Below, piece after piece: positions 25,069 to 51,010 of a stretch of 64,000 bases of DNA. The DNA is taken from the NCBI RefSeq assembly GCF_035989285.1, contig NZ_CP108513.1:8556001-8620000 (forward strand). The letters are read 5' to 3'. This DNA is from Streptomyces sp. NBC_01235 (GTDB taxonomy: Bacteria; Actinomycetota; Actinomycetes; Streptomycetales; Streptomycetaceae). Each line of letters starts with the position of its first letter. The first letter of the stretch is position 1. The translations under genes were made by a program, and so were the position numbers. The notes beneath the pieces are model-generated. The model was not told where the DNA came from. It saw only the letters and a list, made by a program, of their open reading frames with translations, and did not search any database.

Positions 25069-25330
25069 ACCGTTCCTAGAGACTGAGCGGGAGTGAGTCC
25101 TGTCGCCAGGTCTCATGCTCGGCCGAACGCCCCGGACGGTGTTGGGCGTTCTGGTTGCCCGCGTTCGCTCCGCGTCCGGGCGGCACGGATCGTGTCCGTG
25201 GTCCGGGGATGCGGGGGCGGGTTCCCTCACGCCCAGGAACCCCCGGTCGGGCCTGGACGGTCCGATGCCCCTGCTCATCACTCCGGTGAGCAGGGGGCGG
25301 TGCCGTCCGTCGCCGGATCGGGTGTCCCTG
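25069..25330 (-). ncRNA. Putative TnpB guide RNA (omega-RNA/reRNA) of copy 1
   Basis: The 3' part of tnpB and the right end can fold into GC-rich hairpins on the minus-strand transcript. One is a perfect 10-bp stem (25268-25277 with 25287-25296, loop TCACTCCGG). Another pairs GGGTTCC (25219-25225) with GGAACCC (25236-25242). Copy 2 keeps these structures. In TnpB systems the RNA derives from this end and its 3' extension beyond the element is the guide; here that would be minus-strand sequence reading CTGACACCTTTCTCGGGTGC. Boundaries are approximate. Confidence 0.45.
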
Positions 25331-26758
25331 GGCGCGCCTTCCGATCGCCACGGCAGCAGCCTCGTGGCGAGTGGTTGTGCGGGTTGTGGTGGTGAGGGGC
25401 TTCTGCCAGTGCTGGGCGCCCCAGCGGCTGGTGTAGGCCGGGTCGACGGCGATGACCGCGATACCCGTGGCGTCGGCCATCGAGGCCAGCCGGGCGCGGA
25501 GCTTGCCGGTGGGCATGCCGGAGATGAGCTGCCGGAAGCGTTTGCGGCGGCCGTGTTTCTCCCGGGTCTTCTCCGCGCCGAAGTCCAGATCCTCCACCGC
25601 GATCGCCTTCACGCCGCAGGTACGGGCCCAGTGCAGGACACGGGTGAGGGCGTGGCGGACCTGGGCATCCCGGTGCTCGGCGGTACCGGTCAGGCCGTAG
25701 AAGAAGCGGCGCGGGGCGCCAATCGGGTTGCCGTGGATGTCCAGGCGCCAGGCGCCAGGCGGGCAGATGGTCGACGTTCATGTCGACGCCGATCACGCCG
25801 TGGGCGAGCGCGGCATCGAGGGGGAGGGTGGGGGTGGGCGGGAGCTGCCAGGAGGCGGTCACATACCAGCGGTCCCGGCCCATGTCGATGGGGGTCCCCC
25901 CGGTCGGGCGAAGTCGAGAGTGGGGGAGGATGCGGTAGGCGATCGCCCGGCCGGCTGCAACGCGGTCCGCCCACTCGGTGCCCCGGTGCCCCGGTGCGCG
26001 AACGTGACCCTGCTCGCGAGGACGTACCGTCCGTGCGGGGCGTTGGCCAGATGTGTGAGCGGCGCGGGGAGTTTGATGCTCACCTCGCCGTCGGGGCCGA
26101 CGCGGATCGTCTCGTTGCCGTAGCGCTTGCCGGGCTCACCGTCCGCCTGGCAGAACCAGCGCTCGGCCTCCCAGCGTCCGCGCCATCCGGACTCGGTGAG
26201 CTGGGCCGCCTCCAGGTGGTGCCGGGCACGGGCCAGGCGCTTGCCGCCGCGTACGACGTGCACAACTCCGGCCTCGCGGTCGGCCCGCGCGGCAGTCAGC
26301 CGGTCTTCCAGCACCCGCAGCCGCCTCGACTTCGCATGCCACTGGCGCCGCGACCGGTACCCCCCGGGCGCCTTCTTGGTTCCCTTCTGCCCGATCGGCA
26401 GGGACAGCCGGTGCGTGAGGGTGCGGATGCCCGCTTCCAGATTCTGGATGTGTGCGAGCTGGCAGCGGCGGGCCAGCGCCCACTGGTCGTGCGAGGCCTT
26501 GGTGATCGCCCCGGCCCAGCGCGACGACGCGAGGGGCGTCAGCTCCCGCTTACGCACCGCCCACGCCTCACCGGAGTACTCCAGGCCGTCCCGGCAGCGC
26601 GCCTTGAGATCCTTCGAGGCCAGCGACCCCAGATGCGCGCCCACCACACGCAGCACCTTCTCATCGTCCGACGCCAGGTCCTTCAGGCGGGTCCGAATGG
26701 CCACACCACTCGGACCGGACGCGACGAACGACGCCGCCACACTCCTCAGCTCACCCAT
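25076..26758 (-). pseudogene. Broken tnpB (RuvC-like RNA-guided nuclease family), copy 1
   Basis: This is the counterpart of the intact ORF at 50755-52386. Relative to that copy it has a 7-base duplication (GCGCCAG) near 25745 and an insertion of about 38 bases near 25885-25925 matching a Streptomyces palindromic repeat. Together these split the frame into an N-terminal part (from MGELRSVAASFVASG, ATG at 26758) and separate RuvC parts. The catalytic segments VDMNVDH and AIAVEDLDF are still readable in separate frames. A full-length nuclease cannot be made, although the RNA-forming 3' end is preserved. Confidence 0.85.
25885..25925. repeat. Palindromic repeat inserted in tnpB copy 1
   Basis: About 38 bases (ATGGGGGTCCCCCCGGTCGG then GCGAAGTCGAGAGTGGGG) are absent from copy 2 at the equivalent position, so they are a clean insertion. 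The sequence is of the GGGGGTCCCCC/CGAAGTCGAGAG class that recurs in Streptomyces genomes and aligns in reverse with the element in gntR at 3655-3697. Confidence 0.75.
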
Positions 26759-26988
26759 CCCGTCACCCCCGCCCGGCCCCACCCGAAGATCCTTTTGCCA
26801 TGGAAACGAGCGTCGCCTGTGAAGGTCACGCATTCGATGAGAGAACGTCAGTTCCTCACTGAAACCGACACCACGGCCGAACCACATGACACGACACAGA
26901 CCACCCACACTCACTCCCGCTCACCTGAACACCTTCGAACGCACTCCAGCGGCAGCAGCTCCAAACCCTTGACTGTCTCGGTTCTGAC

Positions 26989-27438
26989 GTGATCAACCCC
27001 GACGAGCGGCCCGAGGGCGTGTCCGACCCGGACTTCATCCGCGCCCTGCCGGCGCACGACCTGTGGCGGGCGTCCACCTACCGCTTCCACGCCCTGGTCC
27101 TGCAACGGTGGCGCGTGCGGCGGCGGTTCCTCCTCGGCGACGCGGCACACATGGCCCCGCCGTTCCTCGCGCAGGGCATGTGCCAGGGCATCCGTCCTCC
27201 CCCGCACACGAGGCCGAGGACGGCCTCCCCCTCGGACTCGTCCGTCCCGTCGACCCCGTCGAGGACGCCGCGCCCGCCCGACCGGACGAGTGCCGCGGTA
27301 CTGGCCCGCCCCGACCACCGCGTCGTCGGCGGCGTCCGCGTGGTGGACGGCCTCGGCGTCCGGCTCGCCGCCGTCCGTCGGCAGCTGCGCGCAGCGCCAC
27401 CGGAGTCGGTCTGCGGGACGGGGCGCCCGCCGGGGTGA
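26989..27438 (+). pseudogene. Fragment of an FAD-dependent aromatic hydroxylase (MhpA type)
   Basis: The frame from 26989 reads HDLWRASTYRFHALVLQRWR then RRRFLLGDAAHMAPPFLAQG, followed by MCQGI. This is the conserved C-terminal FAD/NADPH motif of class A flavoprotein monooxygenases (GDAAH.MPPF.GQG), especially 3-(3-hydroxyphenyl)propionate hydroxylase. The N-terminal FAD domain is absent. After this core the frame turns into Pro/Arg-rich nonsense while a neighbouring frame keeps ARPDHRVVGGVRVVDG, so it is also frameshifted. The TnpB element ends 20 bases upstream, but whether that insertion caused the truncation is unknown. Confidence 0.7.
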
Positions 27439-27474
27439 TTGCGGGGACGGTCGACTTCCTTGCTGTGGAGGGGG

Positions 27475-27975
27475 TTTGACCAGACCGCTCTGGTAGGCGG
27501 CGACGACGAGCTGGGCGCGGTCGCGGGCGTGGAGTTTGGTCATGGCCCATTGGATGTGGCTGCGCACGCCCAGGGGCTCAGGACGAGTTCGGCGGCGATC
27601 TCGGCGTTGGACCTGCCGTGTGCGGCCAGGGCCATGACCTCGCGTTCGCGGTCGGTGAGGGCCTTGAGGACGTCGGGGAGGGGGAGGGAGTCGTCGGTGT
27701 CCGGGGCGGCCAGGAAGCGGGTGGTGGGGGCCCGGGTGGCGGTGGGGGAGAGGAGGGAGTCACCGGCCGCGACGGTGCGGATGGCCGACAGCAGGACGTC
27801 GGGGCTGACGCCCTTGCCGAGGAAGCCGCTGGCGCCGGCCCGCAGGGCCTTGGCGACGTTCCGGTCGTTCTCGAAGGTGGTGAGGACGAGGATCCGGGTG
27901 GGGGACCAGGGCGAGCGCGATCAGGACGGCGACGACCACGGCGTCCGCGGCGCACAGGCCCATCTTGGTCAGCAT
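27475..27975 (-). pseudogene. Deletion-fused remnant of a two-component system (kinase start joined to NarL-type regulator end)
   Basis: From an ATG at 27975 the frame reads MLTKMGLCAADAVVVAVLIA then LALVPH, like the first membrane segment of a NarX-type sensor kinase. Near 27905 the sequence becomes the second half of a NarL/FixJ receiver (RILVLTTFENDRNVAKALRA, GASGFLGKG) and then a LuxR helix-turn-helix (LTDREREVMALAAHGRSNAE). A one-base frameshift follows the segment ELVLSP near 27575; the rest (VRSHIQWAMTKLHARDRAQL) continues in another frame. A deletion has removed most of the kinase and the start of the regulator. Non-functional. Confidence 0.7.
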
Positions 27976-28015
27976 CGGGACACCGGAGCGTGCCGAGACC
28001 GGAGCGTGGCGCGGT

Positions 28016-28426
28016 TCAGGCCCAGGGGGTCTCGGGGGCGGGGCGGCGCGCGGGCCGGCGGCGCTCGCGGTAACCCGCGACGAGGCCGCCGGCCGCGCCC
28101 AGGGAGACCAGGCCCATGGCAGCGGCGGCGATGACGCCCTTGACGCCGTCCATGGCGAAGTACATCGCGACGGCCGTGCCGCCGTTGAACAGGAACAGGA
28201 ACCACAGCGTGCCGGGCCTGGACAGGAACGCCTTGATCCTCGGCTTCTTGGCGATGCGCGAGCCGGCGAGGAGCGAGACGACACCGCCGACGGCGGTGGC
28301 CGCGTCCTTCTGGGTGCCGTCGAGGACCGCGCCGGCGCCTGTGCTCGCGGCGAGACCGCAGGCGAAGAAGGTCCAGAGCAGCAGGTCGGTGACGAACTTC
28401 CTGACGGCGGCGAGCGGAGAGGCCAT
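28016..28426 (-). CDS. Small membrane protein of unknown function
   Basis: A 136-residue protein with four hydrophobic segments: about residues 10-32 (FVTDLLLWTFFACGLAAST), 45-58, 72-90 (TLWFLFLFNGGTAVAMYFAM) and 95-118 (GVIAAAAMGLVSLGAAGGLV). It ends in a basic Arg/Pro-rich tail. I do not recognise a family with a known role. The ATG at 28426 is supported by AAGGAAG; the open frame extends upstream but without membrane-protein character. It is divergent from the VOC gene. Confidence 0.6.
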   Translation of the reverse strand: MASPLAAVRKFVTDLLLWTFFACGLAASTGAGAVLDGTQKDAATAVGGVVSLLAGSRIAKKPRIKAFLSRPGTLWFLFLFNGGTAVAMYFAMDGVKGVIAAAAMGLVSLGAAGGLVAGYRERRRPARRPAPETPWA

Positions 28427-28688
28427 GGGGATCTTCCTTACGAGCGGGACGCGAGGTCCGGGCGTGGGATCTGCGGGAATCGGTGACCGGGACCGGTCGC
28501 GATCTCTGTCGTCCACGATCCCGGCCCCCGCTCGTCGCCACGAGGGAGCGGCCTCCCGACTTCGGGGTGTAGCCCGCTCCACCCTCGGCCACCCCCGGTC
28601 GCCTTCGGCCCTGAGCCGCTGTGCCGACGCGCGATTGTCGGTGCCGGATGTCACGCTGAAGTCCCAGGACCTGCGAAAGGGAATCGAC

Positions 28689-29495
28689 GTGATCACCACC
28701 GACCTCACACCCGGCTCCCCCTGCTGGCTCGACCTAGGTGCCCCCGACGTCCGGGCCACCGCGGCCTTCTACGGCGCGGTGCTGGGCTGGGAGTACGAGC
28801 CCATGGGGGGCGAGGGGGAGGAGATGGAAGGGGGGATGTTCCAGAAGGACGGCAAGACCGTCGCCGGGCTCGGCAAGCTCACCGAGGAGGGCGCGCGCTC
28901 GGCATGGATGATCTACTTCACCGTCGACGACGCCGACGCCACGGCCCAGGCCGTGGAGCGCGCGGGCGGCACGGTGCGGGTGCCGACGAGGGACCTCGAG
29001 GACTGGGGTCGGATGGCGCAGTTCAACGACCCGCTGGGCGGCCAGTTCGCGGTCTGGCAGCCGGGGAAGAACACGGGCTTCGAGCTGGTGGACAAACCGG
29101 GCTCGCTGTCCTGGACCGAGCTGTACACGAGCGACGCCGCGGCCGCCAAGGAGTTCTACGGCGGTGTCCTCGGCTGGCAGTTCGGCGACATGGAGCTGCC
29201 GGGCGGCGGGGGCACGTACACCCTGATCACGCCCGCCGGGCTTCCCGAGGAACGTATGCAGGGCGGCCTCATGGAGGTCACGAAGGAAAACCTCGCGCCG
29301 GCGAACGGGCGGCCGTACTGGCACCCGGTGTTCGCCGTCACCGACTGCGACGCCGCGGTCGCCAAGGTCACCGAGAACGGCGGCAGCGTGCAGATGGGAC
29401 CGACGGACGCGGAGGGTGTCGGCCGGCTGGCCGTCTGCCTCGACCCGTCGAACGCGGACTTCGTGCTGCTCACCCCGGCCCGGGGGACGACCTGA
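28689..29495 (+). CDS. VOC-superfamily protein with two glyoxalase-like domains
   Basis: A 268-residue protein made of two VOC (glyoxalase/bleomycin-resistance/dioxygenase) modules. Repeat 1, about residues 10-128, begins PCWLDLGAPDVRATAAFYGA. Repeat 2, about residues 137-265, begins SLSWTELYTSDAAAAKEFYG. The same FYG..LGW pattern occurs in both. Metal-ligand positions are not clearly conserved (few His/Glu at the usual sites), which is common for the hydroxylase-like VOC proteins of Streptomyces. No substrate can be assigned. The GTG at 28689 fits the family start and follows AAGGGAATC. It stands alone, divergent from the small membrane protein gene. Confidence 0.82.
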   Translation: MITTDLTPGSPCWLDLGAPDVRATAAFYGAVLGWEYEPMGGEGEEMEGGMFQKDGKTVAGLGKLTEEGARSAWMIYFTVDDADATAQAVERAGGTVRVPTRDLEDWGRMAQFNDPLGGQFAVWQPGKNTGFELVDKPGSLSWTELYTSDAAAAKEFYGGVLGWQFGDMELPGGGGTYTLITPAGLPEERMQGGLMEVTKENLAPANGRPYWHPVFAVTDCDAAVAKVTENGGSVQMGPTDAEGVGRLAVCLDPSNADFVLLTPARGTT

Positions 29496-29544
29496 AGGCC
29501 GGTGGGCGGTCCTGCGCACCCGTGTCCCAGCGGACCGGCCGAGG

Positions 29545-29919
29545 GCGCTCACAGGGCGGCGGCGTCGCGCTGATCGAGGTCGCGCAGGTCCAGCGAGCGG
29601 ATCCGCGCGGCCTCCTCGGCGGTCCGCCCGCCCCGGTAGAGTCGAGGCCGGTGACCTGGTAGGCGGAGTGGACGCAGCCCGGGTCGACCGCCCTGCCGCC
29701 GAAGGTGCCCCGCAGCCACCGCTCCCGCTCGGAGCGGGCGGCGACGCCGGAACCAACCGAAGTCGCGGGCGAAGACCTCCGACCGGTCCGGGTCGGCTTC
29801 TCGAACTCCAGCCGGGCCAGGTCGGCCACCTTGATCACCGGGTTGCGGGACCGCCCCGGGTGCTCGCCGCGCAGGGCGCCCTGTTCGCTGTGGAGGTCCT
29901 GGTGGGGCGTCCGAGGCAT
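29545..29919 (-). pseudogene. Decayed VOC ring-cleavage dioxygenase (catechol 2,3-dioxygenase-like)
   Basis: From the ATG at 29919 the frame reads MPRTPHQDLHSEQGALRGEH then PGRSRNPVIKVADLARLEFE and KP. This is the start of actinobacterial 2,3-dihydroxybiphenyl/catechol dioxygenase-like VOC proteins. It then shifts frame: AARSERERWLRGTF and RIRSLDLRDLDQRDAA appear in pieces and most of the catalytic domain is missing. The intact divergent TetR gene at 30068 and the operator at 30014-30027 were probably its control system. Confidence 0.6.
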
Positions 29920-30013
29920 GGTCTCCGCCAAGAGGCGTCGCGCAGGAAGCATCACCGTAATGAGGAAATCATCAGATTTGACAGAATTCTCGTTCGAGGC
30001 GCATCGGAAAGAA

Positions 30014-30027
30014 TGATGGAACCATCA
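30014..30027. promoter_or_regulatory. TetR-type operator TGATGGAACCATCA
   Basis: A 14-base dyad (TGATGG, two-base centre, CCATCA) lies 41 bases before the TetR start, in the divergent region shared with the decayed dioxygenase. It is positioned for autoregulation. Confidence 0.55.
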
Positions 30028-30067
30028 GAAGTGCTGTTACTTCCGTTGTGGCGGCTAGACTCTGGGC

Positions 30068-30703
30068 ATGTCTTCGTCAGCCCCGCCCCGCAACCGCTTC
30101 GAACGGCGCCGCGCCGAGACCCGTGGGGCGCTCGTGCGCGCAGCCCGGCAGATCCTCGCCGAGACGGGGGACACCAGCGCGAGCATCCAGGCGATCGCGG
30201 AGCGCGCGGACGTCGGCTTCGGCTCGTTCTACAACCACTTCGAGTCGAAGACGGAGCTGTTCGACGCGGCGGTGCGGGACGCCCTCGAAGAGCTCGGCCA
30301 GACCTTCGACGAGCATCTGCAGGGCATCGACGACCCGGCGGAGCTCGTCGCGGCGGGCTTCCGGCTCGGCGCCCGCATGGCCACCTCCCGGCCCGAACTG
30401 ATGCAGGTCCTGCGCCACCGCGGACTCGGTCACATCCACGCCGACTCGGGCCTGGCCCCGCGCGCCGTGCGTGACCTGGAGGTCGGTGTCGCCTCGGGCC
30501 GGTTCACCGTCACCGACCCGACCGTCGCGCTGGCCGCCCTGGGCGGCTCCCTGCTGGCGCTGGTCGAGCTGCGGTTCGCCCGGCCGGAACTCGACGGCGA
30601 CGAGGCCGCCTCGAACCTGGCCGAGATGCTCCTGCGCATGCTGGGAGTCCCGCCGGAGGACGCCCACGACGTCGCCCGGCGTCCGCTGCCCGACCTCGAC
30701 TGA
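30068..30703 (+). CDS. TetR-family transcriptional regulator
   Basis: A 211-residue repressor. The helix-turn-helix (SIQAIAERADVGFGSFYNHF) lies at about residues 40-60, followed by a helical ligand-binding domain (ELVAAGFRLGARMATSRPEL, FTVTDPTVALAALGGSLLAL). It is divergent from a ring-cleavage dioxygenase pseudogene, and a hydroxylase fragment lies 3 kb away, so it was probably the repressor of an aromatic-degradation operon and may now control only itself. The ATG at 30068 gives an N-terminus (MSSSAPPRNRFERRRAET) usual for the family. The ligand is unknown. Confidence 0.88.
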   Translation: MSSSAPPRNRFERRRAETRGALVRAARQILAETGDTSASIQAIAERADVGFGSFYNHFESKTELFDAAVRDALEELGQTFDEHLQGIDDPAELVAAGFRLGARMATSRPELMQVLRHRGLGHIHADSGLAPRAVRDLEVGVASGRFTVTDPTVALAALGGSLLALVELRFARPELDGDEAASNLAEMLLRMLGVPPEDAHDVARRPLPDLD

Positions 30704-30893
30704 CGAGCGGCCGAGCCCGCGGCGGACGCCGCCGACCGGTCACGCGGACGACGCGTCCGGGCGGAAGGTGACCCACTCGCCGGTGAAGCGGGCGCCGATC
30801 CCGCTCTCCGCGGTGGTGACCGACCGCAGACGCGGCCCCTCGGGGGTGTTCCGCACGGTCGACGACGGTGCCGCCGACCAGCGACACCGCGAC

Positions 30894-30947
30894 GGACGTG
30901 GCGGACGTGGCGGACGTGACGGACGTGACGGACGTGACGGACGTGAC
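30894..30947. repeat. 9-bp tandem array (GGACGTGRC x 6)
   Basis: Six copies, two of GGACGTGGC and four of GGACGTGAC, lie in the gap 30704-30998 between the two TetR genes. The rest of that gap holds a minus-strand frame ending in TGEWVTFRPDASSA that I cannot assign and that the array interrupts with meaningless RHV/SRP repeats. Confidence 0.9.
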
Positions 30948-30998
30948 GGCGAGGATCCCTCGCAGGCTCCCCGGGGCGGGGGAACTCGCGAACAGGCG

Positions 30999-31757
30999 TC
31001 ACCGTGACGCGGCACGCTCACGGGCTCCTCGTCGTACGGGGACTGGTGCACGCGCTTTCCTCGCGGGAAGGCCGGGTTGTTCGGGGAGGTCGGGGGCTCC
31101 CGCGCTGACGCGCTCGGGGTCGGGGCGGGCGAGCCGGTGGATCCGGGTGGCGGCGAGGTCGCCGTCCGCCCCCGCCGCGATCAGTGCGGCGGTCGCGCTG
31201 CGTGTGCCGTCGTCGCGCCAGGTCCCGGCGTTCACGCACTCCAGGAGAGCCAGGAGAAGCCCTTCGAGCGCTCTGCTGAGCGGGCCGGGCGGAACGCTGG
31301 TCCGGAAGACGCCCTGCTCCCGGCCTCGTTCGATGATCGACCGTGCGATGTCGCGGGCGGGGGCGAGGATCTCGTCGACGCGCTCCGGCCTCAGGTCCTG
31401 CGGCGAGAGCCTGAGCAGCGTGCGATAGCGGTCGCCGACGGGCCACAGGGCCAGGATGAAGCGTGCCATCGAGGTGGCGGCGTCGGCGTCGGGGTCGGCG
31501 TCGGGGTCGCGGTCGGTCATGGCCGTCAGGGCGCGGCGCAGCGCCTCCGCCGCCTCCGCGGCCAGCCCCTCGATCAGCGCGGGCCGGCCGCCGAAGTGGT
31601 CGTAGACGGTGCGGCGTACCACGCCGGCGGCTTCGGCGATGTCGCCGAGGCTGCTGTCGGGGTCGCGGCCGAGTTCCCGCCGTGCGGCTTCGAGGATGCG
31701 GGCCCGGGTGAGCTGTGTCTGTCGGCGTCCGCCGCCTGTGACGAGTGGGCCGGTCAT
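30999..31757 (-). CDS. TetR-family regulator, probably of the adjacent DHA2 exporter
   Basis: A 252-residue TetR repressor. The helix-turn-helix (SLGDIAEAAGVVRRTVYDHF) is near residues 36-56 and is followed by a helical sensor domain. An Asp-rich loop (DRDPDADPDADAATS, about residue 83) is encoded by short GGGTCGGCGTC repeats and is unusual. The C-terminal 40 residues are Pro/Arg-rich. It is divergent from the DHA2-family exporter at 31914 with paired operator-like sites between them, the standard arrangement for a drug-responsive repressor and its pump. The ligand is unknown. Confidence 0.87.
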   Translation of the reverse strand: MTGPLVTGGGRRQTQLTRARILEAARRELGRDPDSSLGDIAEAAGVVRRTVYDHFGGRPALIEGLAAEAAEALRRALTAMTDRDPDADPDADAATSMARFILALWPVGDRYRTLLRLSPQDLRPERVDEILAPARDIARSIIERGREQGVFRTSVPPGPLSRALEGLLLALLECVNAGTWRDDGTRSATAALIAAGADGDLAATRIHRLARPDPERVSAGAPDLPEQPGLPARKARAPVPVRRGARERAASR

Positions 31758-31813
31758 GTCGGACCTCCGGTCGTGTCGGACCTCCGGTCGGGGGTGGGAG
31801 GACGACTCGATAC

Positions 31814-31858
31814 TTGCACACCGATGAGCAATAAACTAGCCTGCACATCGTTGGGCAA
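31814..31858. promoter_or_regulatory. Paired operator sites between TetR and the DHA2 exporter
   Basis: TTGCACACCGATGAGCAA (31814-31831) and TGCACATCGTTGGGCAA (31842-31858) are near-copies. Both are bounded by TGCAC and GCAA and their starts lie 28-29 bases apart, as expected for two repressor dimers overlapping the divergent promoters. A 16-base direct repeat (GTCGGACCTCCGGTCG) adjoins at 31757-31790. Confidence 0.5.
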
Positions 31859-31913
31859 ATAACTGGCCGCCCATGGTGCCGCTTCGCCCCCGCTTCACCC
31901 TGAGGAGCTTCCG

Positions 31914-33536: not shown

Positions 33537-33555
33537 GCCGGTGCGGACGGGCACC

Positions 33556-35831: not shown

Positions 35832-35931
35832 TCGTGGACGGGTGGAGTGACGCACGGGGCGGTGATGAGGGCCACCCGGCGGGCGAGAGCACGATCACGC
35901 GAGGTGACGCGCTATTGGCCATGAACCCGAC

Positions 35932-36065
35932 ACACGGTACCGTCGCTCTGATATCGACGACGGCATCACGGAAGCCGGTGGGAATCCGGCACGGTCGCGC
36001 CACTGTGGTCGGTCCGCCTCTCTCGACGGGGCGCACCGCGAGTCAGACCCGGGACCGTCGTCCTG
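35932..36065 (+). promoter_or_regulatory. Cobalamin riboswitch upstream of cbtBA
   Basis: The leader contains the B12-box core GAAGCCGGTGGGAATCCGGC, then ACGGTCGCGCCACTGTGG, and the downstream GAGTCAGACCCG, in the order and spacing of the cobalamin riboswitch. It ends about 45 bases before cbtB. Adenosylcobalamin binding should hide the cbtB ribosome binding site (AGAGGAGG) or end transcription. Boundaries are approximate. Confidence 0.88.
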
Positions 36066-36109
36066 TGCACCACCGAGATGGGACGCGTACTCCCAGAGGA
36101 GGCCCTGCC

Positions 36110-41184: not shown

Positions 41185-41345
41185 GGCGTCGGAGGCCGCC
41201 AGCAGGTCTTCGGACTCGGGGTCACCCGGACGAGGCGCCTTCCCGGAGCGCGATCACGCTCCAGTGGCCAGTGCCCCGCCCGTCGCCCTTACCGCTGCGC
41301 GTCAGCTCCGGAGTCGCACCGGATTCCCTGACCCGCGCGCGTACG
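41185..41345 (-). promoter_or_regulatory. Cobalamin riboswitch upstream of btuFCD
   Basis: On the minus strand the leader contains GGGTCAGGGAATCCGGTGCG, then ACTCCGGAGCTGACGCGCAG, CGGTAAGG, CCACTGG, GGGAAGG and GAGTCCGAAGACCTGCTGGC, the ordered conserved blocks of the cobalamin riboswitch. It lies 70-230 bases before btuF. The remaining bases to 41612 hold a minus-strand fragment (AWTVGAVALAVFGTRTRSAR) like a transporter C-terminus but no complete gene. Confidence 0.95.
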
Positions 41346-41612
41346 GATACGCACATGGGTACGACTGGCCTCGGCAAGCTACCACAGGCCCCCCGCGCCC
41401 CCGGCTCAGGCGGGGACGCTCACGCGTTGCCGCTCCGCCTCGGCGAGGCGTGCCGAGCGTGTCCGGGTGCCGAAGACGGCCAGGGCGACCGCGCCGACCG
41501 TCCAGGCGCTCCCGTCGCCTCAGCGGAGGGCGTTCACACTGTCGTCGGCCCTGGACGCTCCCAGGTTCGGTCGCGCGGTCCCGACAGGATCCGCGCAAGC
41601 CTTCCGAGCAGG

Positions 41613-43655: not shown

Positions 43656-43672
43656 GGGCGCCCGCGCCTCCT

Positions 43673-43801
43673 TCAACCGCGTGCCCGCGACGGCAACGCG
43701 GCCAGGGCCCCGGGGATCGGCGCGTCGTCGCGCTCACAGCGGAGGTCGACGACCCGTACGGACGCCCGCTGGGGAGTGCGGTCGATGACGAGTGCTTTCA
43801 C
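43673..43801 (-). CDS. Short ORF resembling a truncated dehydrogenase N-terminus
   Basis: From a GTG at 43801 a 42-residue frame reads VKALVIDRTPQRASVRVVDL then a Pro/Ala/Arg-rich tail, stopping just before the methyltransferase ribosome binding site. The opening resembles the MKAL-type start of zinc-dependent alcohol dehydrogenases, so this may be a cut-off gene head or a short upstream ORF of the operon. Confidence 0.25.
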   Translation of the reverse strand: MKALVIDRTPQRASVRVVDLRCERDDAPIPGALAALPSRARG

Positions 43802-44392
43802 GCTTGCTCCGACGTCGGAGGACGGGGACGGGTGGCCCGCTGTGCGGACACGAGCCGACAGCGCCCCACGAGTACCCCCCGACAGCGGACGTAACGACGT
43901 TCACTGCTCCCGCATGGACGGCGAGGCCGGTGGGGGACGGACACCAGGCGCCCGGCCGCGGCCCGCGGCGTCGACGCGGTCGTGCGCCTCGGCGACCCTC
44001 TCCGGCGGGCGACGCCGCCGACGTCGAACGCCGACGAGGGCGAGGCCGCCGGCCTCTTCGCCGTCAAGAAGGACTCCGACTTCACCGACCTGCTGCTGCG
44101 CGCGGTGACCGACACGCGGGACACCGACGGGCTCGCCGACCTGGTCAGCGGCTTCGGCAACAAGCTGGGCCGACGCGCCCACGGTGAGGGCGCCGACGGC
44201 GGCAGCGGCGGTGAGGTCGCGGGTGGCCTGTCGTTCCGCCTCGGCGGGGAAGTCGTCGCCGCCGAGCAGGCGCGGCGTGGTGTCGGCGAACGGCAGCGGC
44301 CAGAAGGGGACGCGGGGGCGGTCGTCGCGGGTGGCGTGTTCTGCGGCTCGCGATGCTGCGGCTCGCGCCGCGCTCCTGCTCAGCGGCCCGCC
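43802..44392. other. Gene-poor stretch with unidentified remnants
   Basis: A 591-base gap between the dehydrogenase-like ORF and lacI. On the plus strand 43982-44187 has a protein-like segment (LFAVKKDSDFTDLLLRAVTD then TRDTDGLADLVSGFG). On the minus strand next to lacI another reads RVPFWPLPFADTTPRLLGGD. Neither has a clean start or end, and both look like fragments of genes I cannot name. A 12-base direct repeat (TGCGGCTCGCGA/C) lies near 44345-44370. Confidence 0.5.
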
Positions 44393-45424
44393 TCATGCCT
44401 CCCGTGCGCCGAGCGCGGGCTGCTCGCCCGAGCCGCGGACGATCAGCCGGGTGGGCACGGAGATGGTGCGGGCCCGGGTGCGGTCGCCGTCGAGCCGGGC
44501 CAGGGCGGTGGTCGCTGCCGTTCTGCCGATTTCCTCGGGGTCCTGGGCGACGACGGTCAGCGCCGGTTCGAGTGCCTCGGCGAGTGACACGTCGTCGAAG
44601 GTGACGACGGCCACGTCCTTGCGCTTGGTGCGGGCGAGTTCGGCGACTATGCCCAGCGCCATGATGTTGTTGCCGGCGAACAGCGCCGTGGGGGGATCGG
44701 CCAGGTCGAGCAGCTTCGACGTCGCGGCCTCGGCCCCTTGCTGGTCGTGTGCGCTGGCGACCAGCGAACGATCGTGGGGGAGGCCGGCCTCCTCCAGGGC
44801 CGAGCGGTAGCCGGCGAGGCGTTCGCGGCGGGTGTAGAGCTTGGTCGGCAGGTCGCCGATGAAGCCGATGCGCCGGTGTCCGTGGGCGATGAGGTGGGTG
44901 ACGCCGTCGTGGGAGCCCGCGCGGTTGGTGCTGACGACACAGTCCGTGGCCAGGCCCACGCCCGGACGGTCGATGAAGACGACGGGCAGGCCCGTGGCGC
45001 GGTGGGTCTTGAGGTGGGAATGGTCGGCCCCGACGGACGGCACGACCATCAGGACGCTGACGCGCCGGGCGAGGAACTTGTCCGTCAGCGCCCGTTCGCG
45101 GGCGGGCTCGTCCGCGGAGGAACCCATGAGCAGGGTCAGGCCCCGGTCGCGCACGGTGTCCTCGATACTCCTGGCCACCGCTCCGAAGAAGGGGTTGCCG
45201 AGGTCCGGAATGACCAGTCCTACGGTGGTGTCGGGTCCGCCGACGCGGATGTTGCGCGCCATGAGGTTCGGCTGGAAGCCGAGCTTGGCCACCGCGGCGA
45301 GGACCTGTTCCCTGGTCTCGGCCGAGGCGGGTCCGTCCTCGTTGAGGACGCGGGAGACGGTCTTGGCGCTGACGCCCACTTCGCGCGCGACGTCTGCCAG
45401 GGTCGGGCGGCGGTTCGCTGCCAT
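44393..45424 (-). CDS. LacI-family transcriptional regulator of the sugar transport cluster
   Basis: A 343-residue LacI-type repressor. The N-terminal helix-turn-helix and hinge read TLADVAREVGVSAKTVSRVL, then NEDGPASAETREQV, with LMARNIRVGG entering the core. A periplasmic-binding-like sensor domain follows (VGLVIPDLGNPFFGAVARSI; FIDRPGVGLATDCVVSTNRA; FAGNNIMALGI). It lies downstream of and co-oriented with the ABC transporter genes. TGTCA..NN..TGACA operators before the transporter/kinase pair and before the dead GH32 gene are its probable targets. The inducer is probably the transported sugar or its phosphate. Confidence 0.9.
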   Translation of the reverse strand: MAANRRPTLADVAREVGVSAKTVSRVLNEDGPASAETREQVLAAVAKLGFQPNLMARNIRVGGPDTTVGLVIPDLGNPFFGAVARSIEDTVRDRGLTLLMGSSADEPARERALTDKFLARRVSVLMVVPSVGADHSHLKTHRATGLPVVFIDRPGVGLATDCVVSTNRAGSHDGVTHLIAHGHRRIGFIGDLPTKLYTRRERLAGYRSALEEAGLPHDRSLVASAHDQQGAEAATSKLLDLADPPTALFAGNNIMALGIVAELARTKRKDVAVVTFDDVSLAEALEPALTVVAQDPEEIGRTAATTALARLDGDRTRARTISVPTRLIVRGSGEQPALGAREA

Positions 45425-45488
45425 CGAGGAAACAGTCTCCTGTGCTCGTCGGTTCCGGCCGCGGCCTCGGCCGGAACCTGTGAGTGCT

Positions 45489-46325
45489 TCAGTTGGCCTG
45501 GACTCCCGCGGCCTTGGCCGCCTCGGAATCCGCTACGACAGTATCTCCGGCCTCGTCGACGGTGAGAGCGCCGGTCATGATGGCGACGACCTCGGCCATG
45601 GAGTAGTCGGAGGGCTTGATCACGGCGGCGCGCCGGCCGAGGCGGTGGACGTGGATCCGGTCGGCGATCTCGAAGACGTGCGGCATGTTGTGGCTGATCA
45701 GGACGACCGGCATGCCCTTGTCCCGGACGCGCCGGATGAGGTCCAGTACCTGACCGGACTCCTTGACGCCGAGGGCGGCGGTGGGTTCGTCCATGACGAC
45801 GACGCTGCTGGCCCAGGCGACGGAACGGGCGACCGCGACGGCCTGCCGCTGTCCGCCGGAGAGGGTCTCGACCGACTGGGTCAGCGAGCGCAGGCCGATC
45901 TTCAGGTCGGCCATGTGCTCAGAGGCCTCCTGGCGCATGCGCTTCTTGTCCAGCATGCGGAAGACACTGCCGAGGACACCCGGGCGGCGCAGCTCCCGGC
46001 CGAGGAACATGTTCGAGGCGATGTCCATGGAGGCGGCCACGGCGAGGTCCTGATAGACCGTCTCGATGCCGTGGGCGCGGGCGCTCTGCGGACCGGAGAA
46101 GGCGATGGGCTCGCCGTTGAGTCGTATCTCGCCCGCGTCGGGGACCACCGCGCCGGTGAGCGCCTTGATCAGGCTGGTCTTGCCGGCTCCGTTGTCGCCG
46201 ATGACGGCGAGGACCTCGCCGGGCAGCAGGTCGAAGTCGGCCCCGTCGATGGCGGTGACATGGCCGTAGCGCTTGACCAGACCGCGGGCCTGGAGCACGG
46301 GCGTGGGGGACGAGGTGGCGGTCAT
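45489..46325 (-). CDS. CUT2-type sugar ABC transporter ATPase (single domain, FrcA-like)
   Basis: A 278-residue ATPase. Walker A is AVIGDNGAGKTSLIKALTGA, the signature is LSGGQRQAVAVARSV, Walker B is VVVMDEPTAALGVKE and the switch VVLISHNMPHVFE. D-for-N changes and the one-domain form place it with the FrcA-like ATPases of CUT2 importers, in contrast to the two-domain RbsA. The ATG overlaps the permease stop (ATGA). With the downstream kinase and GH32 remnant, fructose is the best substrate guess. Confidence 0.88.
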   Translation of the reverse strand: MTATSSPTPVLQARGLVKRYGHVTAIDGADFDLLPGEVLAVIGDNGAGKTSLIKALTGAVVPDAGEIRLNGEPIAFSGPQSARAHGIETVYQDLAVAASMDIASNMFLGRELRRPGVLGSVFRMLDKKRMRQEASEHMADLKIGLRSLTQSVETLSGGQRQAVAVARSVAWASSVVVMDEPTAALGVKESGQVLDLIRRVRDKGMPVVLISHNMPHVFEIADRIHVHRLGRRAAVIKPSDYSMAEVVAIMTGALTVDEAGDTVVADSEAAKAAGVQAN

Positions 46326-47317
46326 CGGGCCTTCTTCCGGGAGATCTGGTCGACGGTCACCGCGAGGATCACCAGGACACCGGTGATCAGGGTCTGGTAG
46401 ATGGAGGCGACACCCATCAGTTGCAGGCCGTTGCGGAAGACGCCGACGATGAGGACGCCGATGAAGGTGCCCAGGACCGAACCGCGTCCGCCGAAGAGGC
46501 TGGTGCCTCCGAGGACCACCGCGGTGATGCTGTCGAGGTTGTCGGTCTGGCCGGCCTGGGGGTCGCCGACCCCGGTGCGGGAGATCAGCAGCAGGGCGGC
46601 GATGCCGTACAGCAGACCCGCCACGGTGTAGATGCCGATGGTCAGGCGGGAGGTGCGGATGCCGTTCAGCCGTGCCGCTTCCTGACTGTTGCCCAGGGCG
46701 TAGACGTGCCGGCCCCAGCCGGTGTTGCTCAGCGAGTAGGCGAGGAGGAGGAACAGGGCGATGGTGACCAGGGAGCCGTAGGTGATGTCGGTGTGGCCGA
46801 GCGGGAAGGTCTCGCCGAGGGCGGTCAGCGGGCCGGGCAGGTTGGTGACCGTCTGTTCCTCGGAGTAGATGTGGGTCAGCGCGAACGCCACGTTGAGCAT
46901 GCCGAGGGTGACGATGAACGGCGGCAGCGGGATCTTCTGCACCAACAGACCGTTGAGCAGCCCGAACCCACCGCAGACGGCTATGCCCAGGGCGATGGCG
47001 AGGAACGGGGACAGGGAGCCCTCGGCGGCCATCTTGGCGATCACGATGCTGCCGAACGCCATCACGGCCCCGCACGACAGGTCGATGCCCGCGGTGAGGA
47101 TGATCAGGGTCTGTCCGATGGCGAGGGTGCCGACGACCATGACCTGCTGCACGATCAGCGAGAAGTTGCCGCCCGTGAGGAACTGGTCGGTCGAGAAGGC
47201 GAAGAAGGCGCAGGCCAGGAGGAGGGCGACCAGTGGGCCGGTGGTCGGCGCCGTGAGCAGTCGGCGGGCCGTGGTCGGTGCTTTGAGCTCGGCGTACGGC
47301 GTGGTCGTGGCTGTCAT
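46322..47317 (-). CDS. CUT2-type sugar ABC transporter permease (RbsC/FrcC-like)
   Basis: A 331-residue permease with about nine membrane helices in the RbsC pattern: TLAIGQTLIILTAGIDLSCG (the conserved first loop), GLLVQKIPLPPFIVTLGMLN, YALGNSQEAARLNGIRTSRL (ATPase-coupling loop) and VVLGGTSLFGGRGSVLGTFI. It forms the channel for the sugar delivered by the binding protein. A stem-loop in the 152-base gap after the binding-protein gene probably lowers permease expression relative to the binding protein. Confidence 0.9.
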   Translation of the reverse strand: MTATTTPYAELKAPTTARRLLTAPTTGPLVALLLACAFFAFSTDQFLTGGNFSLIVQQVMVVGTLAIGQTLIILTAGIDLSCGAVMAFGSIVIAKMAAEGSLSPFLAIALGIAVCGGFGLLNGLLVQKIPLPPFIVTLGMLNVAFALTHIYSEEQTVTNLPGPLTALGETFPLGHTDITYGSLVTIALFLLLAYSLSNTGWGRHVYALGNSQEAARLNGIRTSRLTIGIYTVAGLLYGIAALLLISRTGVGDPQAGQTDNLDSITAVVLGGTSLFGGRGSVLGTFIGVLIVGVFRNGLQLMGVASIYQTLITGVLVILAVTVDQISRKKAR

Positions 47318-47377
47318 GCGAAGTCCTTGTCGGAAGACAGTGGTCGTTGTCCTTCCCGGTCGGAGGACAAGAGGACG

Positions 47378-47421
47378 AGCGGGCGGCCGTCACCCGGTCG
47401 GGAGGGGACGGCCGCCCCGCT
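47378..47421 (-). terminator. Intra-operon attenuator between the binding-protein and permease genes
   Basis: GGGCGGCCGTC (47381-47391) pairs with GACGGCCGCCC (47407-47417); three further pairs extend it beyond a one-base bulge. Located after the binding-protein stop, it is placed for partial termination, which would keep the receptor more abundant than the membrane parts. Confidence 0.5.
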
Positions 47422-47469
47422 GAGGGGAGAGGCGGAGGCGTACGGGCCTCGGGTCTGCCCGGGGGCGGC

Positions 47470-48486
47470 TCAGCCCCAGCAGTTCTCCAGGCCGAAGGCG
47501 GTGTCCTTGGACGTGACCCCGGCCTGCGCCTTGTCGGTGATCAGCGTGACGCCCGTGTCGGTGTAACCGGACGCCTTCTTGCCGTCCTTGGCGTACGTCA
47601 CGACGGCCTTGACGCCCTCGGCGGCCATCTTCAGCGGGTACTGCTGCGACGTCGCGGCGATCTTGCCGTCCTTGACCGCCTGGGTGCCGGTGCAGCCGCC
47701 GTCGACGGAGACGATCAGGACGTCCTTCTCCCGGCCCTTGGCCTTGAGCGCGGTGTACGCGCCCAGCGCGGCCGGCTCGTTGATGGTGTAGACGACGTTG
47801 ATGCCGGGCTCCTTCTGGAGACAGTTCTCCATCGCCGTCTGGCCCTTGGCCTGGTCGCCGCCGGTGTCCTGGGCGCACACCACGTCCTTGTCGGTGGCGC
47901 CGAAGCCCTTCAGGAAACCGTTGTGCCGCTGGACGCCGACAGAGACGCCCGGCGCCAGGTCGAGGGCGGCAATCTTCGCCGTCTTGCCCTTCATGGCGGC
48001 CTTGGCGTACTCGCCGATCAGCTGGCCGGCCTTGAGGTTGTCGGTGGCGAAGAGGGCGTCGACCGCGCTCTCCGGCTCGGTCGGGGTGTCCAGGGCGATG
48101 ACCAGGACGCCCTTGGCGCGGGCCTTCGCGATCGCGGGCACGATGGCCTTGGAGTCGCTCGGGGTGATCAGGATGCCCTTCACGCCGGACGCGACCATGT
48201 TCTCGATGGCCGTGACCTGACCGGCGTTGTCGCCGTCGAACTTGCCTGCCGCGGTCATCAGCTTGACGCCCTCGGTCTTCGCGGCCTTCTCGGCGCCCTC
48301 CTTCATCTTCACGAAGAAGGGGTTGGTGTCGGTCTTGGTGATCAGGCCGACCTTGACGTCGCCCGAACCGGTACTGGCGGAGTCCGATCCGGAGCCGGAT
48401 CCGCAGGCCGTCAGGGTGAGGGCCGCGATGCCTGTGCACGCGGCGACTCTGAGGAGCGAGAGGGGCAGACGAGTGGAGCGAGACAT
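47470..48486 (-). CDS. CUT2-type sugar-binding lipoprotein (RbsB/FrcB-like)
   Basis: A 338-residue lipoprotein with signal [11 protein letters not shown] (acylated Cys near residue 27) and a type I periplasmic-binding fold: [55 protein letters not shown] and [20 protein letters not shown]. Its motifs (TNPFF, NEPAA) are closer to fructose-binding FrcB-type receptors than to ribose RbsB, but that is from memory. The ATG at 48486 follows GCAGGAG. First gene of the transport operon, divergent from the kinase gene with shared operators. Confidence 0.88.
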
Positions 48487-48545
48487 GAACGACTCCTGCG
48501 GGATTGCGAGCGGTACGGCCGGCATCGGAACATGCCGTCCCGAGG

Positions 48546-48575
48546 TGTCATCGTTGACTTATGTCATCGTTGACA
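48546..48575. promoter_or_regulatory. Tandem LacI-type operators between the transporter and kinase genes
   Basis: TGTCATCGTTGAC occurs twice (48546-48558 and 48562-48575, the second continuing to TGACA). Each full site is TGTCA-N4-TGACA. They lie 60 bases upstream of the binding-protein gene and 157 bases upstream of the divergent kinase gene, so one LacI tetramer could control both. Confidence 0.75.
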
Positions 48576-48731
48576 CTGCATGGCGAGGATGATGGACTCC
48601 GTCTCCCGGAAACGTCAATGCCCTGCACTCGTCACAAATCGGCAACGCAGGCGGCCGCCCCCCGAAGCCGTCCGCCGGCCGCGCCACGACGCGCCCGGTA
48701 GGCCCGTACGCCCGTCAGAGAAGAGCAGCCC

Positions 48732-49694
48732 ATGAGCCCGCGTCAGATCACCGTCCTGGGGGAGTGCGTCGCGGACGCGTTCACCGAACCCGCGAGTGCC
48801 TCGAACGAACTCGCCCTGCGCGTCCTGCCCGGCGGCGGACCCGCGAACACGGCAGTGTCCCTGGCCCGGCTCGGCACCCCGGTCCGCTTCCTCGCGCGGT
48901 TGTCCGGCGACGTGTTCGGCCGCTTGTTCCGGGCCCACCTGGAGGCCTCCGGGGTGGACCTGTCGAGTGCCGTCGAGGCCGCGGAGCCCAGCACACTGGC
49001 CGTGGCGGAGCTGGACGCCCAGGGGCAGGCCACGTTCTCCTTCCACGCGCAGAACACGGCCGACTGGCAGTGGACGGCCGAGGAACTGGCCCGGGTCGAC
49101 CTGTCCGGGACCGCCTGCGTGCACACCGGATCCCTGGCCCTGGTCCGGGAACCCGGCGCGGCGGTGGTGGAGGACTTCCTGGCCTCGGCCGCCCCCCGGG
49201 CGACCATCAGCATCGACCCCAACGTCCGGCCGCTGCTGGTGCGTCCCGACGTCTACCGCGCCAGGCTGGCGCACTGGTGCGCCCTCGCCGACGTTCTTCG
49301 GCTGAGCGAGGACGACCTGGAACTCCTGCTGCCGGGCACACCGCCCGAGCAGGCGTGCGACATCTGGCACGCGGCCGGGGCGCGGCTCGTCGTGATCACC
49401 CACGGTGCCGACGGCGCCCTGGCCTCGCTCGACGGCGAACGGGTGAGGGTGCCCGCCGTCGCGACGAGCGTCGTCGACACGGTCGGGGCGGGCGACTCCT
49501 TCACCGCCGGGATGCTGCACCACCTCGGCGCCCACGGACTTCTCGGCGGCCGGCTGACGGAACTCCGCCTCGACGACGTCGCGGAGGCGTGCCGGTTCGC
49601 CTCCCGGGTCGCGGCCCTGACCTGCTCGGTCGCCGGTCCCAACCCGCCGTGGCGGAGCCGGTTGGAGCAGCCCGCCGCAGCCGGCGGCGTATGA
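48732..49694 (+). CDS. PfkB-family carbohydrate kinase (fructokinase-like)
   Basis: A 320-residue ribokinase-fold kinase. The N-terminal signature is LPGGGPANTAVSLARLGTPV (about residues 33-52). The C-terminal ATP/anion-hole motif VVDTVGAGDSFTAGML contains the catalytic Asp of GAGD near residue 254. The protein should phosphorylate the sugar brought in by the divergent CUT2 transporter. Fructose is favoured over ribose because a GH32 (fructan-cleaving) pseudogene follows and shares an operator. The ATG at 48732 has GAAGAGCAG upstream. Confidence 0.87.
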   Translation: MSPRQITVLGECVADAFTEPASASNELALRVLPGGGPANTAVSLARLGTPVRFLARLSGDVFGRLFRAHLEASGVDLSSAVEAAEPSTLAVAELDAQGQATFSFHAQNTADWQWTAEELARVDLSGTACVHTGSLALVREPGAAVVEDFLASAAPRATISIDPNVRPLLVRPDVYRARLAHWCALADVLRLSEDDLELLLPGTPPEQACDIWHAAGARLVVITHGADGALASLDGERVRVPAVATSVVDTVGAGDSFTAGMLHHLGAHGLLGGRLTELRLDDVAEACRFASRVAALTCSVAGPNPPWRSRLEQPAAAGGV

Positions 49695-49778
49695 CCGGCA
49701 GGCCGGTCGCGCGACGGTTGCGTCGCCCCTGAGCCGTTGACGTATCGGCCGGACCACGTCCATCATCGGGCCACGCGG

Positions 49779-49792
49779 TGTCATCGATGACA
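49779..49792. promoter_or_regulatory. Perfect LacI-type operator before the GH32 remnant
   Basis: TGTCATCGATGACA is a perfect 14-bp palindrome of the same TGTCA-N4-TGACA form as the two sites at 48546-48575. It lies just before the decayed GH32 gene, linking that gene to the same regulon. Confidence 0.7.
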
Positions 49793-49794
49793 CA

Positions 49795-50250
49795 GATCGA
49801 CGACGACACCCTTTTCTCGGCGCCGTGGACCACGGCGCCGAGAAGGCGTTGCCCGGCGAGCCGGTCGACCGCCTGGCGTCCCTGCGGCAGACCGCGCCGA
49901 CGGCGACCGGCGAGAACATCTCACGGCCCTTGATCGGCCCCGCCGCCAAGGGCGGGGTGCTCGACTTCGGGGCGACTTGTCCCTCGAGGGCCCGAACGCT
50001 TCGGCCTGAGGTCACGCAAGGGTGCGAACGGCGAGGAGACCGTCATCGGCTACGACACCACGACGCAGGAGCTGTACGTCGACCGCCCCAACTCCGGTGC
50101 CGCGGACTTCAGCAGCGACTTCCCCGGCGTCCAGCGAGCACCGCTGAGGCCGAGAACGGCAGGGCCGAGCTGCGCGTCCTCGTCGGCCGGTCGTCGTCGA
50201 GGTCTTCGGCGGCAGCGGCGAAGCCGTGATCACCGACCAGATCTTCCCTG
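49795..50250 (+). pseudogene. Decayed GH32 fructosidase/levanase C-terminus
   Basis: Segments of the GH32 C-terminal beta-sandwich are spread over several frames: VDRLASLRQTAPTATGENIS then RPLIGPAAKGGVLDFGAT, SRKGANGEETVIGYDTTTQE then LYVDRPNSGAADFSSDFPGV, and EVFGGSGEAVITDQIFPDP. These correspond to the conserved end of levanases and sucrose-type hydrolases (GYD..T.EL..DR, D.SS.EVF). The catalytic N-terminal propeller is absent and at least two frameshifts separate the pieces. The upstream LacI-type operator is intact. Confidence 0.75.
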
Positions 50251-50316
50251 ACCCCGACCGACCCCCATCGCCCCCGACCGACCCCCACCGACCCCCACCA
50301 CGGAGGACATCACACC

Positions 50317-50610
50317 GTGAACAAGACCCTGCTCGCCGAGTTCACCGCCCGCGAGGGAACGGAGGACGAGGTCACCCGTCTGCTCCTGGAGTACGCGAAG
50401 AAGGTGCGCGAGGAAGAGGGCAACCTCGCCTTCGACGTCTACACCAAGTCGTCCCACCCGCGCGCCTTCTGGATCTTCGAGGTGTACCGGGACGAGGACG
50501 CCTTCCAGGCCCACCTGAAGGCCCCGTACGGCGGCCCGTTCAACACCACGCTCGTCCCGCTGATCGAGGAGGACGCCTCGGTGCTGACCTTCCTCGATCC
50601 GGTGACCTGA
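50317..50610 (+). CDS. Antibiotic-biosynthesis-monooxygenase (ABM/YgiN) domain protein
   Basis: A 97-residue dimeric alpha/beta-barrel protein of the ABM superfamily: LLAEFTAREGTEDEVTRLLL, EEGNLAFDVYTKSSHPRAFW and IFEVYRDEDAFQAHLKAPYG, the regular family pattern with the conserved Glu-Gly and the FW.FEVY..E.A...H core. Members act as cofactor-free quinol oxygenases or have no known substrate. The GTG at 50317 is preceded by GGAGGACATCACACC. It stands alone between the GH32 remnant and TnpB element copy 2. Confidence 0.85.
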   Translation: MNKTLLAEFTAREGTEDEVTRLLLEYAKKVREEEGNLAFDVYTKSSHPRAFWIFEVYRDEDAFQAHLKAPYGGPFNTTLVPLIEEDASVLTFLDPVT

Positions 50611-50747
50611 GCTCGTCCCATCCGGTGACGGACGTCGGCCGGGCCCGCCCACCGGGCCCGGCCCTCACCCATGTCCCGACCGCCGCGCGGCACTGTGGGG
50701 ACATGAACGCGGACGAGAGGGACACCCTGGCCGGTGCGCGCGTGGCT

Positions 50748-51010
50748 ACCGTTCCTAGAGACTGAGCGGGAGTGAGTCCTGTCGCCAGGTCTCATGCTCG
50801 GCCGAACGCCCCGGACGGTGTTGGGCGTTCTGGTTGCCCGCGTTCGCTCCGCGTCCGGGCGGCACGGATCGTGTCCGTGGTCCGGGGATGCGGGGGCGGG
50901 TTCCCTCACGCCCAGGAACCCCCGGTCTGGCCTGGACGGTCCGATGCCCCACCGCATCACTCCGGTGCTGTGGGGGCGGTGCCGTCCGTCGCCGGATCGG
51001 GTGTCCCTGG
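50748..51010 (-). ncRNA. Putative TnpB guide RNA (omega-RNA/reRNA) of copy 2
   Basis: The hairpin equivalent to that of copy 1 pairs CCCCACCGCA (50947-50956) with TGCTGTGGGG (50966-50975) around the same loop TCACTCCGG. Nine of ten positions pair, and three pairs differ from copy 1 on both sides, so pairing is kept while sequence changes. The predicted guide, the minus-strand bases beyond the right end, begins AGCCACGCGCGCACCGGCCA. Boundaries are approximate and expression is unproven. Confidence 0.5.

Follow-up and report, generated by a model that had tools for sequence, protein, structure and literature searches.

A covarying right-end structure in a divergent tnpB-only IS607-family element of Streptomyces and its probable role as a TnpB guide RNA

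INTRODUCTION

TnpB right-end guide RNAs, the fixed base of IS607 elements and 3′ subterminal hairpins have already been published, as the available parts of three papers describe (PMC10711439, PMC11061315 and PMC10278001). Here, we analysed two copies of a tnpB-only element in a stretch of 64,000 nucleotides from Streptomyces sp. NBC_01235 (the window; positions 8,556,001–8,620,000 of a single-contig genome of 11.09 Mb). The element belongs to the IS607 family, and its last 225–240 bases probably give rise to a sense-strand right-end guide RNA, of the right-end element RNA (reRNA) or omega-RNA type, for a divergent TnpB protein; we put the probability of this reading at roughly 0.6.

Like the window family, the IS607 TnpB systems with reRNA (ISXfa1, PMC10711439; ISFba1/RAGATH-18, PMC11061315) are described, in the available text of these papers, with a recombinase of the serine family, a fixed right base, a G-rich motif in the left flank and a structured right-end RNA that reaches the guide. 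Different from the ISXfa1/ISFba1 type, the TnpB of the window family has no zinc ribbon, its open frame is ∼550–570 codons in length, and the element has no Rfam match. The RNA domain of the window family lies inside the frame almost to the element end, whereas the available part of PMC11061315 describes a RAGATH-18 reRNA that does not depend on the coding sequence. IS200/IS605 TnpB with omega-RNA (ISDra2 type; AmaTnpB, PMC10278001, as far as its available text goes) is similar in having the RNA region at the tnpB end and a 3′ subterminal hairpin near the guide, but the window family differs in its transposase family and its target (GGGT, matched dinucleotide). In the same genus, canonical TnpB right ends terminate in GTCAA or close variants.

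The present work adds a lineage without zinc ribbon that scores below the model cut-offs, an RNA domain embedded nearly whole in an open frame, a covariation-backed structure without Rfam match, and a contradictory wobble polarity. In the open-licence literature, no title or abstract on this TnpB family was found, which is not a claim of its absence from print.

RESULTS

The right-end hairpin covaries among homologous elements

Both element copies are on the minus strand. Copy 1 occupies 25069–26968, with its right end at 25069 (the fixed T) and its left end at 26966–26968 (GGG of the minus strand); copy 2, of the same IS607-type family, occupies 50748–52601. The tnpB gene is broken in copy 1 and its frame is open in copy 2, and the two share 91% identity across the element. 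The same genome holds nine near-complete copies (87–100% identity to copy 2), one 75% relative (L010) and six shorter fragments. Helix 1 of copy 1 (25268–25296, minus strand) is formed by the arms 25268–25277 (CCCCTGCTCA) and 25287–25296 (TGAGCAGGGG), with all 10 pairs intact; its counterpart in copy 2 (50947–50975, minus strand) is formed by 50947–50956 (CCCCACCGCA) and 50966–50975 (TGCTGTGGGG), with nine of 10 pairs, and the loop of both is TCACTCCGG. A stem with three double-sided changes and one mismatch had been proposed from the letters of these two copies, and it can be read directly in both: on the plus strand, copy 1 to copy 2, T-A became A-T, G-C became C-G and T-A became G-C, with one C·T mismatch.

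We collected 80 right ends (79 distinct; alignment A1), 10 from the same genome and 70 from 80 named loci, the latter being the best 80 of 445 relatives in the named-genome scan; 10 of the 90 right ends were dropped, having no exact GGAACGG near the match end. Covariation was scored by a G-test with average-product correction, using our own script written after the idea of R-scape; the null re-deals substitutions along the tree and keeps column rates. Both-sided changes occurred at six of the 10 stem pairs, and 95.4% of the cells were paired. Four hairpin pairs (122/144, 123/143, 124/142 and 126/140) had scores reached by no pair in 100 null alignments, and pair 127/139 had an expectation value (E) of 0.02, while pair 125/141 was not significant (E about 7). 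The middle pairs of the hairpin therefore exceed the tree-based null in 80 homologous right ends, as the sequence-only reading had anticipated for a larger alignment. Two diagonal non-pairs, 123/142 (E 0) and 124/143 (E 0.03), also lay beyond the null, which we read as linkage of stem alleles. In an enlarged set of 172 distinct right ends (195 loci minus three incomplete right ends and 20 duplicates), 165 rows had at most one unpaired hairpin position.

The hairpin is part of a right-end RNA domain of ∼225–240 nucleotides, located at 25070–25310 in copy 1 and at 50749–50989 in copy 2 (both minus strand), whose 5′ limit was placed in each copy where coding constraint is lost. Helix 4 (25125–25151 in copy 1, GAACGCCC/GGGCGTTC; 50804–50830 in copy 2) is the second covarying helix, with a weak signal (pair 292/316, E 0.05). 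Pairing is kept in helices 2 and 3, which span 25158–25221 in copy 1 and 50837–50900 in copy 2 (helix 2, 50837–50841/50896–50900; helix 3, 50866–50868/50874–50876). A 3′ subterminal hairpin with a tetraloop follows at 50762–50801 in copy 2 (CCGAGC..GAGACCTG-GCGA-CAGGACTC..GCTCAG), with its counterpart at 25083–25122 in copy 1; like the helices, it is on the minus strand. Taken jointly, four helices have 96.9% of their cells paired and a covariation score of 0.363; shuffled versions score 0.105 and slid ones no more than 0.088. In copy 1, the RNA domain is intact although tnpB is broken. By covariation and kept pairing, the comparison of sequences shows that the right end of this TnpB element holds a base-paired structure under selection for pairing, as proposed earlier, and this conserved structure appears to end at the guide, the feature expected of a reRNA or omega-RNA. 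A second stem, GGGTTCC/GGAACCC, had been called conserved as well; both window copies have it in full, but only five of the 80 rows form all seven pairs, which rules it out as a conserved stem of the family.

The same pairing might be kept at the DNA level, in an inverted repeat read by a protein or in a quasipalindrome that template switching or the exchange of whole stems between copies has perfected, with no RNA function. Only eight of 790 hairpin cells are G-U, a scarcity that weighs against a guide RNA and suits such a DNA-level origin; so do the many double and few single changes (343 double events over the four helices), the small number of recurrent 5′ stem arms (16 among 80 right ends, 32 among 172) and the diagonal non-pairs, which lie above the null like the pairs themselves. 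Against it, pairing is held by several separate helices, in a place where clear coding constraint is lost and which is the known location of TnpB guide RNAs. Stem alleles are also not exchanged unusually often: 34 tree changes for 16 alleles are ordinary compared to the other variable hexamers of the region, so that more frequent swapping of stem cassettes than of other segments is unsupported. We consider pairing without RNA function unlikely.

Some relatives have unusual right ends. L011 (G000:C1:7243080-7243385) is a solo right end of ∼300 bases without tnpB, with its own flank and a paired hairpin of different stem sequence; it is possibly a stand-alone guide RNA or a relic. In L030 and L036, the RNA region is truncated ∼23 bases short of the usual right end, with other sequence beyond; both have a further GGAACGG ∼1.3 kb downstream, whose context in L036 is right-end-like.

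The RNA domain extends beyond the protein-constrained part of tnpB

The tnpB frame of copy 2 (50755–52461, minus strand) is 568 codons in length, with an uncertain start codon, and is open to 50755. The tnpB remnant of copy 1 (25076–26914, minus strand) has the same end, with three in-frame stops ahead of the last one in the frame read. Among the 80 right ends, 71 have a TAG starting nine bases short of the element end, three have an earlier stop and six have no stop there.

The sequence-only reading had the stem overlapping codons of tnpB. The open frame does span the stem; the stem itself, though, lies just past the part constrained as protein. We calculated the ratio of non-synonymous to synonymous polymorphism (pN/pS) from 61 of the 80 rows, the other 19 being a subgroup with a one-base deletion. 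The ratio was 0.34 in RuvC-III (none of 200 column shuffles as low) and 0.84 in the hairpin (68 of 200 as low), where coding constraint is not detectable; beyond the hairpin it was 0.67 (15 of 200 as low), which indicates weak constraint at most. Since coding constraint is lost at the hairpin, the hairpin would be the 5′ edge of a ∼225-base region held by something besides the protein. The open frame is no evidence of a protein tail, because another forward frame is nearly stop-free (stops in five of the 80 rows) and pN/pS is not clearly below the shuffles.

The copies differ by several indels, one of which is a GC-rich stretch (GGGGGTCCCCCC...GTGGGGGAGG) inside the tnpB of copy 1, at about 25889–25929, that is missing from copy 2. 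A similar GC-rich stretch is present, in frame, at the corresponding place of the L010 TnpB, and 27-base inserts in the RNA region of L073 and L080 look similar to it.

The element belongs to the IS607 family and inserts next to a G-rich motif

Just upstream of its tnpB, L010 encodes a 191-residue open reading frame with a PF00239 resolvase domain (E 1e-18; 68.2 bits, cut-off 23.3). A serine recombinase ahead of tnpB places the element group in IS607; this and the matched dinucleotide described below correct the IS605-family assignment of the sequence-only reading. A regular expression found a TnpA-like motif upstream in 14 of 90 loci (three of which have too little upstream sequence). The window copies have no tnpA, and the motif is absent upstream of both.

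The right end reads ...AGGAACGG, followed by T in all 79 rows with enough flank and then by near-random sequence; as the rows had been selected by GGAACGG, only the T is informative about end conservation. This T is present in 170 of the 172 right ends of the enlarged set, conservation falls sharply directly past it, and L010 shares the AGGAACGGT terminus. The 38 left ends carry GGGT in 36 cases and a purine before it in 37, although they were located with a model that was built from the copies of the same genome and itself begins with GGG.

For copy 1, the relative G062 has an uninterrupted site with 87% identity over 380 bases spanning the junction. This empty site is TCAAGGGTCTGAC (in the wider reading ...GACTGTCAAGGGTCTGACAATATC...); in the window, the left end of copy 1 reads ...GACAGTCAAGGG and its right end GGTCTGACACC. 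Past its G-rich flank, the empty site continues with the same sequence as the right flank of copy 1. The expectation that related strains would show the empty site thus holds for copy 1; for copy 2, and likewise for L002, no site spanning the junction was present in 150 genomes each. The one clean empty site shows a matched dinucleotide, GG or GT, without further target duplication, and together with the fixed right base this is what the sequences of an IS607 insertion would be expected to show. L004 (G000:C1:6066120-6067966) has its right flank behind GAAAGGG in G181 and G024 (GAAAGTG in G068). In G181, its left flank lies ∼240 bases upstream; the genome carrying L004 lacks those ∼240 bases by the left end, with the breakpoint at GGG, and a deletion after or along with insertion is therefore indicated. 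These missing bases rule out L004 as a clean empty site.

Because the empty-site and left-end motifs are G-rich, the candidate transposon-adjacent motif (TAM) is approximately RGGG, which agrees with the G-rich TAMs of IS607 TnpB reported in the available part of PMC11061315. The predicted TAM side is 26966–26970 in copy 1 (AAGGG on the minus strand) and 52599–52603 in copy 2 (GGGGG on the minus strand). On the same strand, the predicted guides would be the first 20 bases beyond the fixed T, 25049–25068 for copy 1 and 50728–50747 for copy 2. Copy 1 also has subterminal inverted repeats, TGAGCGGGAGTGAGT at 25084–25098, within the 3′ hairpin, and ACTCACTCCCGCTCA at 26909–26923; the equivalents in copy 2 are 50763–50777 and 52542–52556. 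These repeats are perhaps the site of the recombinase.

The TnpB protein is divergent and lacks a zinc ribbon

Copy 2 TnpB scores below the curated cut-offs of NF040570 (46 against 100 bits), TIGR01766 (30.2 against 32) and PF07282 (19.5 against 26.3), and by sequence comparison it is a homologous but divergent TnpB. The predicted fold is Cas12f-like: over residues 40–497, Cas12f is among the best fold matches, although the identity is ∼12–15% and the TM-score is low. Residues 490–568 are predicted to be disordered. In 87 of 89 proteins, the position of the zinc ribbon holds DPAYTSxWGAxxWQ, and no CxxC was found from −90 to +70 residues of this site in any of the 89; the zinc ribbon, which distinguishes Cas12f from the window TnpB, is lacking. 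Of 295 genomes sampled in the genus, 80 carry the divergent lineage (E 1e-30). In addition to this family, the genome that holds the window (G000) matches the canonical TnpB model (NF040570) at nine places with E 1e-60 or better.

Wobble pairs do not confirm the sense strand

On the true strand of an RNA, G-U cells should be tolerated more than A-C cells. This holds for the control, RNase P from the same order (50 rows, from 59 matching genomes), whose strand effect was 3.04 (p 3.2e-07) when the true strand was scored and 0.82 for the wrong strand. For canonical TnpB right ends from the genus (36 rows; 40 minus one not cut out and three duplicates), the sense value of 2.02 is not significant (p 0.18) and the antisense value is 1.20, with energies of −37.7 and −28.5, respectively. 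The test therefore indicates the true strand clearly for RNase P and weakly for canonical TnpB right ends.

For the window family, the same G-U tolerance gives no confirmation of the minus strand, and several results weigh against a sense-strand guide RNA. The strand effect on the fixed helices is 0.65 (Fisher p 0.087). On the consensus folds, it is 0.88 for the sense fold versus 2.43 for the antisense fold, and the consensus energies are −56.0 and −63.4, respectively. When the last 225 bases are folded as single sequences, the antisense strand is the more stable one in all 80 cases; dinucleotide-controlled z-scores average −2.11 in sense and −2.88 in antisense (n = 12; antisense lower in 10). 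Helix 4 (35 A-C versus 11 G-U) and an outer helix (40 versus 8) lean towards antisense, and helix 1 does so slightly (22 versus 15). Helix 3 has no lean (2 and 2), helix 2 leans towards sense (2 A-C versus 7 G-U), and the 3′ hairpin leans towards sense as well. To the same side of the balance belongs the Rfam search, in which neither element matched any model at the gathering score, RAGATH-18 included; relaxing the threshold to E 1 around copy 2 returned nothing but an unrelated miRNA model (E 0.83).

A selected RNA could instead be transcribed antisense to tnpB, from outside or from the right end inwards, either as an antisense RNA that controls tnpB or with a flank-derived guide at its 5′ end. 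The folding energies and z-scores favour it, and non-Watson–Crick cells in its stronger consensus fold are mostly G-U (672 versus 64 A-C; Fisher 1.9e-07). The outer helix, GGACGG/CCGTCC, is a gain of helix 1 in this fold; its two variable pairs are A-C when read in sense and become G-U in antisense, in 30 and 41 of the 172 rows. However, the effect on the fixed helices is not significant, and two parts of the structure lean the other way. The sense strand is A-rich and T-poor (A 19.5%, T 10.5%), which by composition favours an antisense fold; such a composition, with a hydrophilic open frame disfavouring T, may explain the wobble bias without any antisense RNA. The bias shrinks but persists at third codon positions (17 G-U versus 31 A-C), while changes at unpaired third positions (C to T 155, G to A 72) would be expected to favour G-U. 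When copy 1 and its flanks were scanned with the sigma-70 consensus, neither strand gave a promoter, which is a weak point as other promoter types were not covered. A Cas12f-like protein with a motif in the left flank would suit a guide at the 3′ end. We know of no TnpB guide RNA with the antisense arrangement, and an antisense origin seems quite unlikely to us. The sense reading is kept because of the protein family, the side of the motif and the geometry of the guide. The GNRA tetraloop was rejected as a strand marker and not used: 104 of 126 tetraloop rows are GNRA, but GCAC, GCAG, GCAU, GCUA and CCAA also occur.

The putative catalytic residues bear on whether the window copies cut. In copy 2 they are D336, E397 and E474. 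D336 and E397 do not vary among the 59 members of alignment A2 (29 of 89 proteins were dropped by length or motif filters, and L008 was also left out). The RuvC-III motif is RHD or RHE, and residue 474 is D in 75 of 89 proteins, E in 11, Q in one and H in one, with no match in one. A non-canonical RuvC-III motif is common to the RIII-r4 TnpB clade with rearranged RuvC-III, to which we liken the window family by description only, from the available part of PMC10278001. Both window copies have E at residue 474, a further point against a working guide system, and so do five of the nine copies of the same genome (L001, L002, L004, L005 and L006); with the broken tnpB of copy 1, the window copies may lack cutting. 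That the RNA–protein complex binds without cutting, in a nuclease-dead or transcription-factor-like use and at least in the window copies, would fit these E residues and the intact RNA domain of the broken copy, but with D prevailing at residue 474 and the other two residues invariant it is very unlikely.

A model for the sense-strand guide RNA

As a sense-strand guide RNA, the structure would arise from tnpB transcription starting at the left, after which either TnpB or a nuclease of the host would trim the transcript until the structured right end and the flank are left. From its 5′ end, the RNA would comprise a hairpin whose pairing is kept while its sequence is free to vary, an internal helical domain, helix 4 and the 3′ subterminal hairpin, the last placed about a dozen bases ahead of the guide. 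The scaffold would end in ...AGGAACGGU, where the last U is the fixed flanking base, and host sequence past it would serve as the guide. The Cas12f-like TnpB would carry this RNA and recognise RGGG followed by guide-matched sequence, which is the site emptied when the element moves; this site would be cut, and repair from a sister copy would restore the element. The recombinase may be supplied by relatives such as L010.

The model offers a covariation-backed RNA for a common TnpB lineage whose frame passes through its own presumed guide RNA. It makes testable how one transcript might be shared by ribosomes and guide-RNA folding, and from which strand the RNA originates. Should its nuclease prove active, this TnpB would have a G-rich motif and be fit for GC-rich genomes.

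Other structured RNAs in the window

Two cobalamin riboswitches in the window score above the Rfam gathering score, one at 41202–41354 on the minus strand (86.7 bits) and the other at 35918–36073 on the plus strand (32.8 bits).

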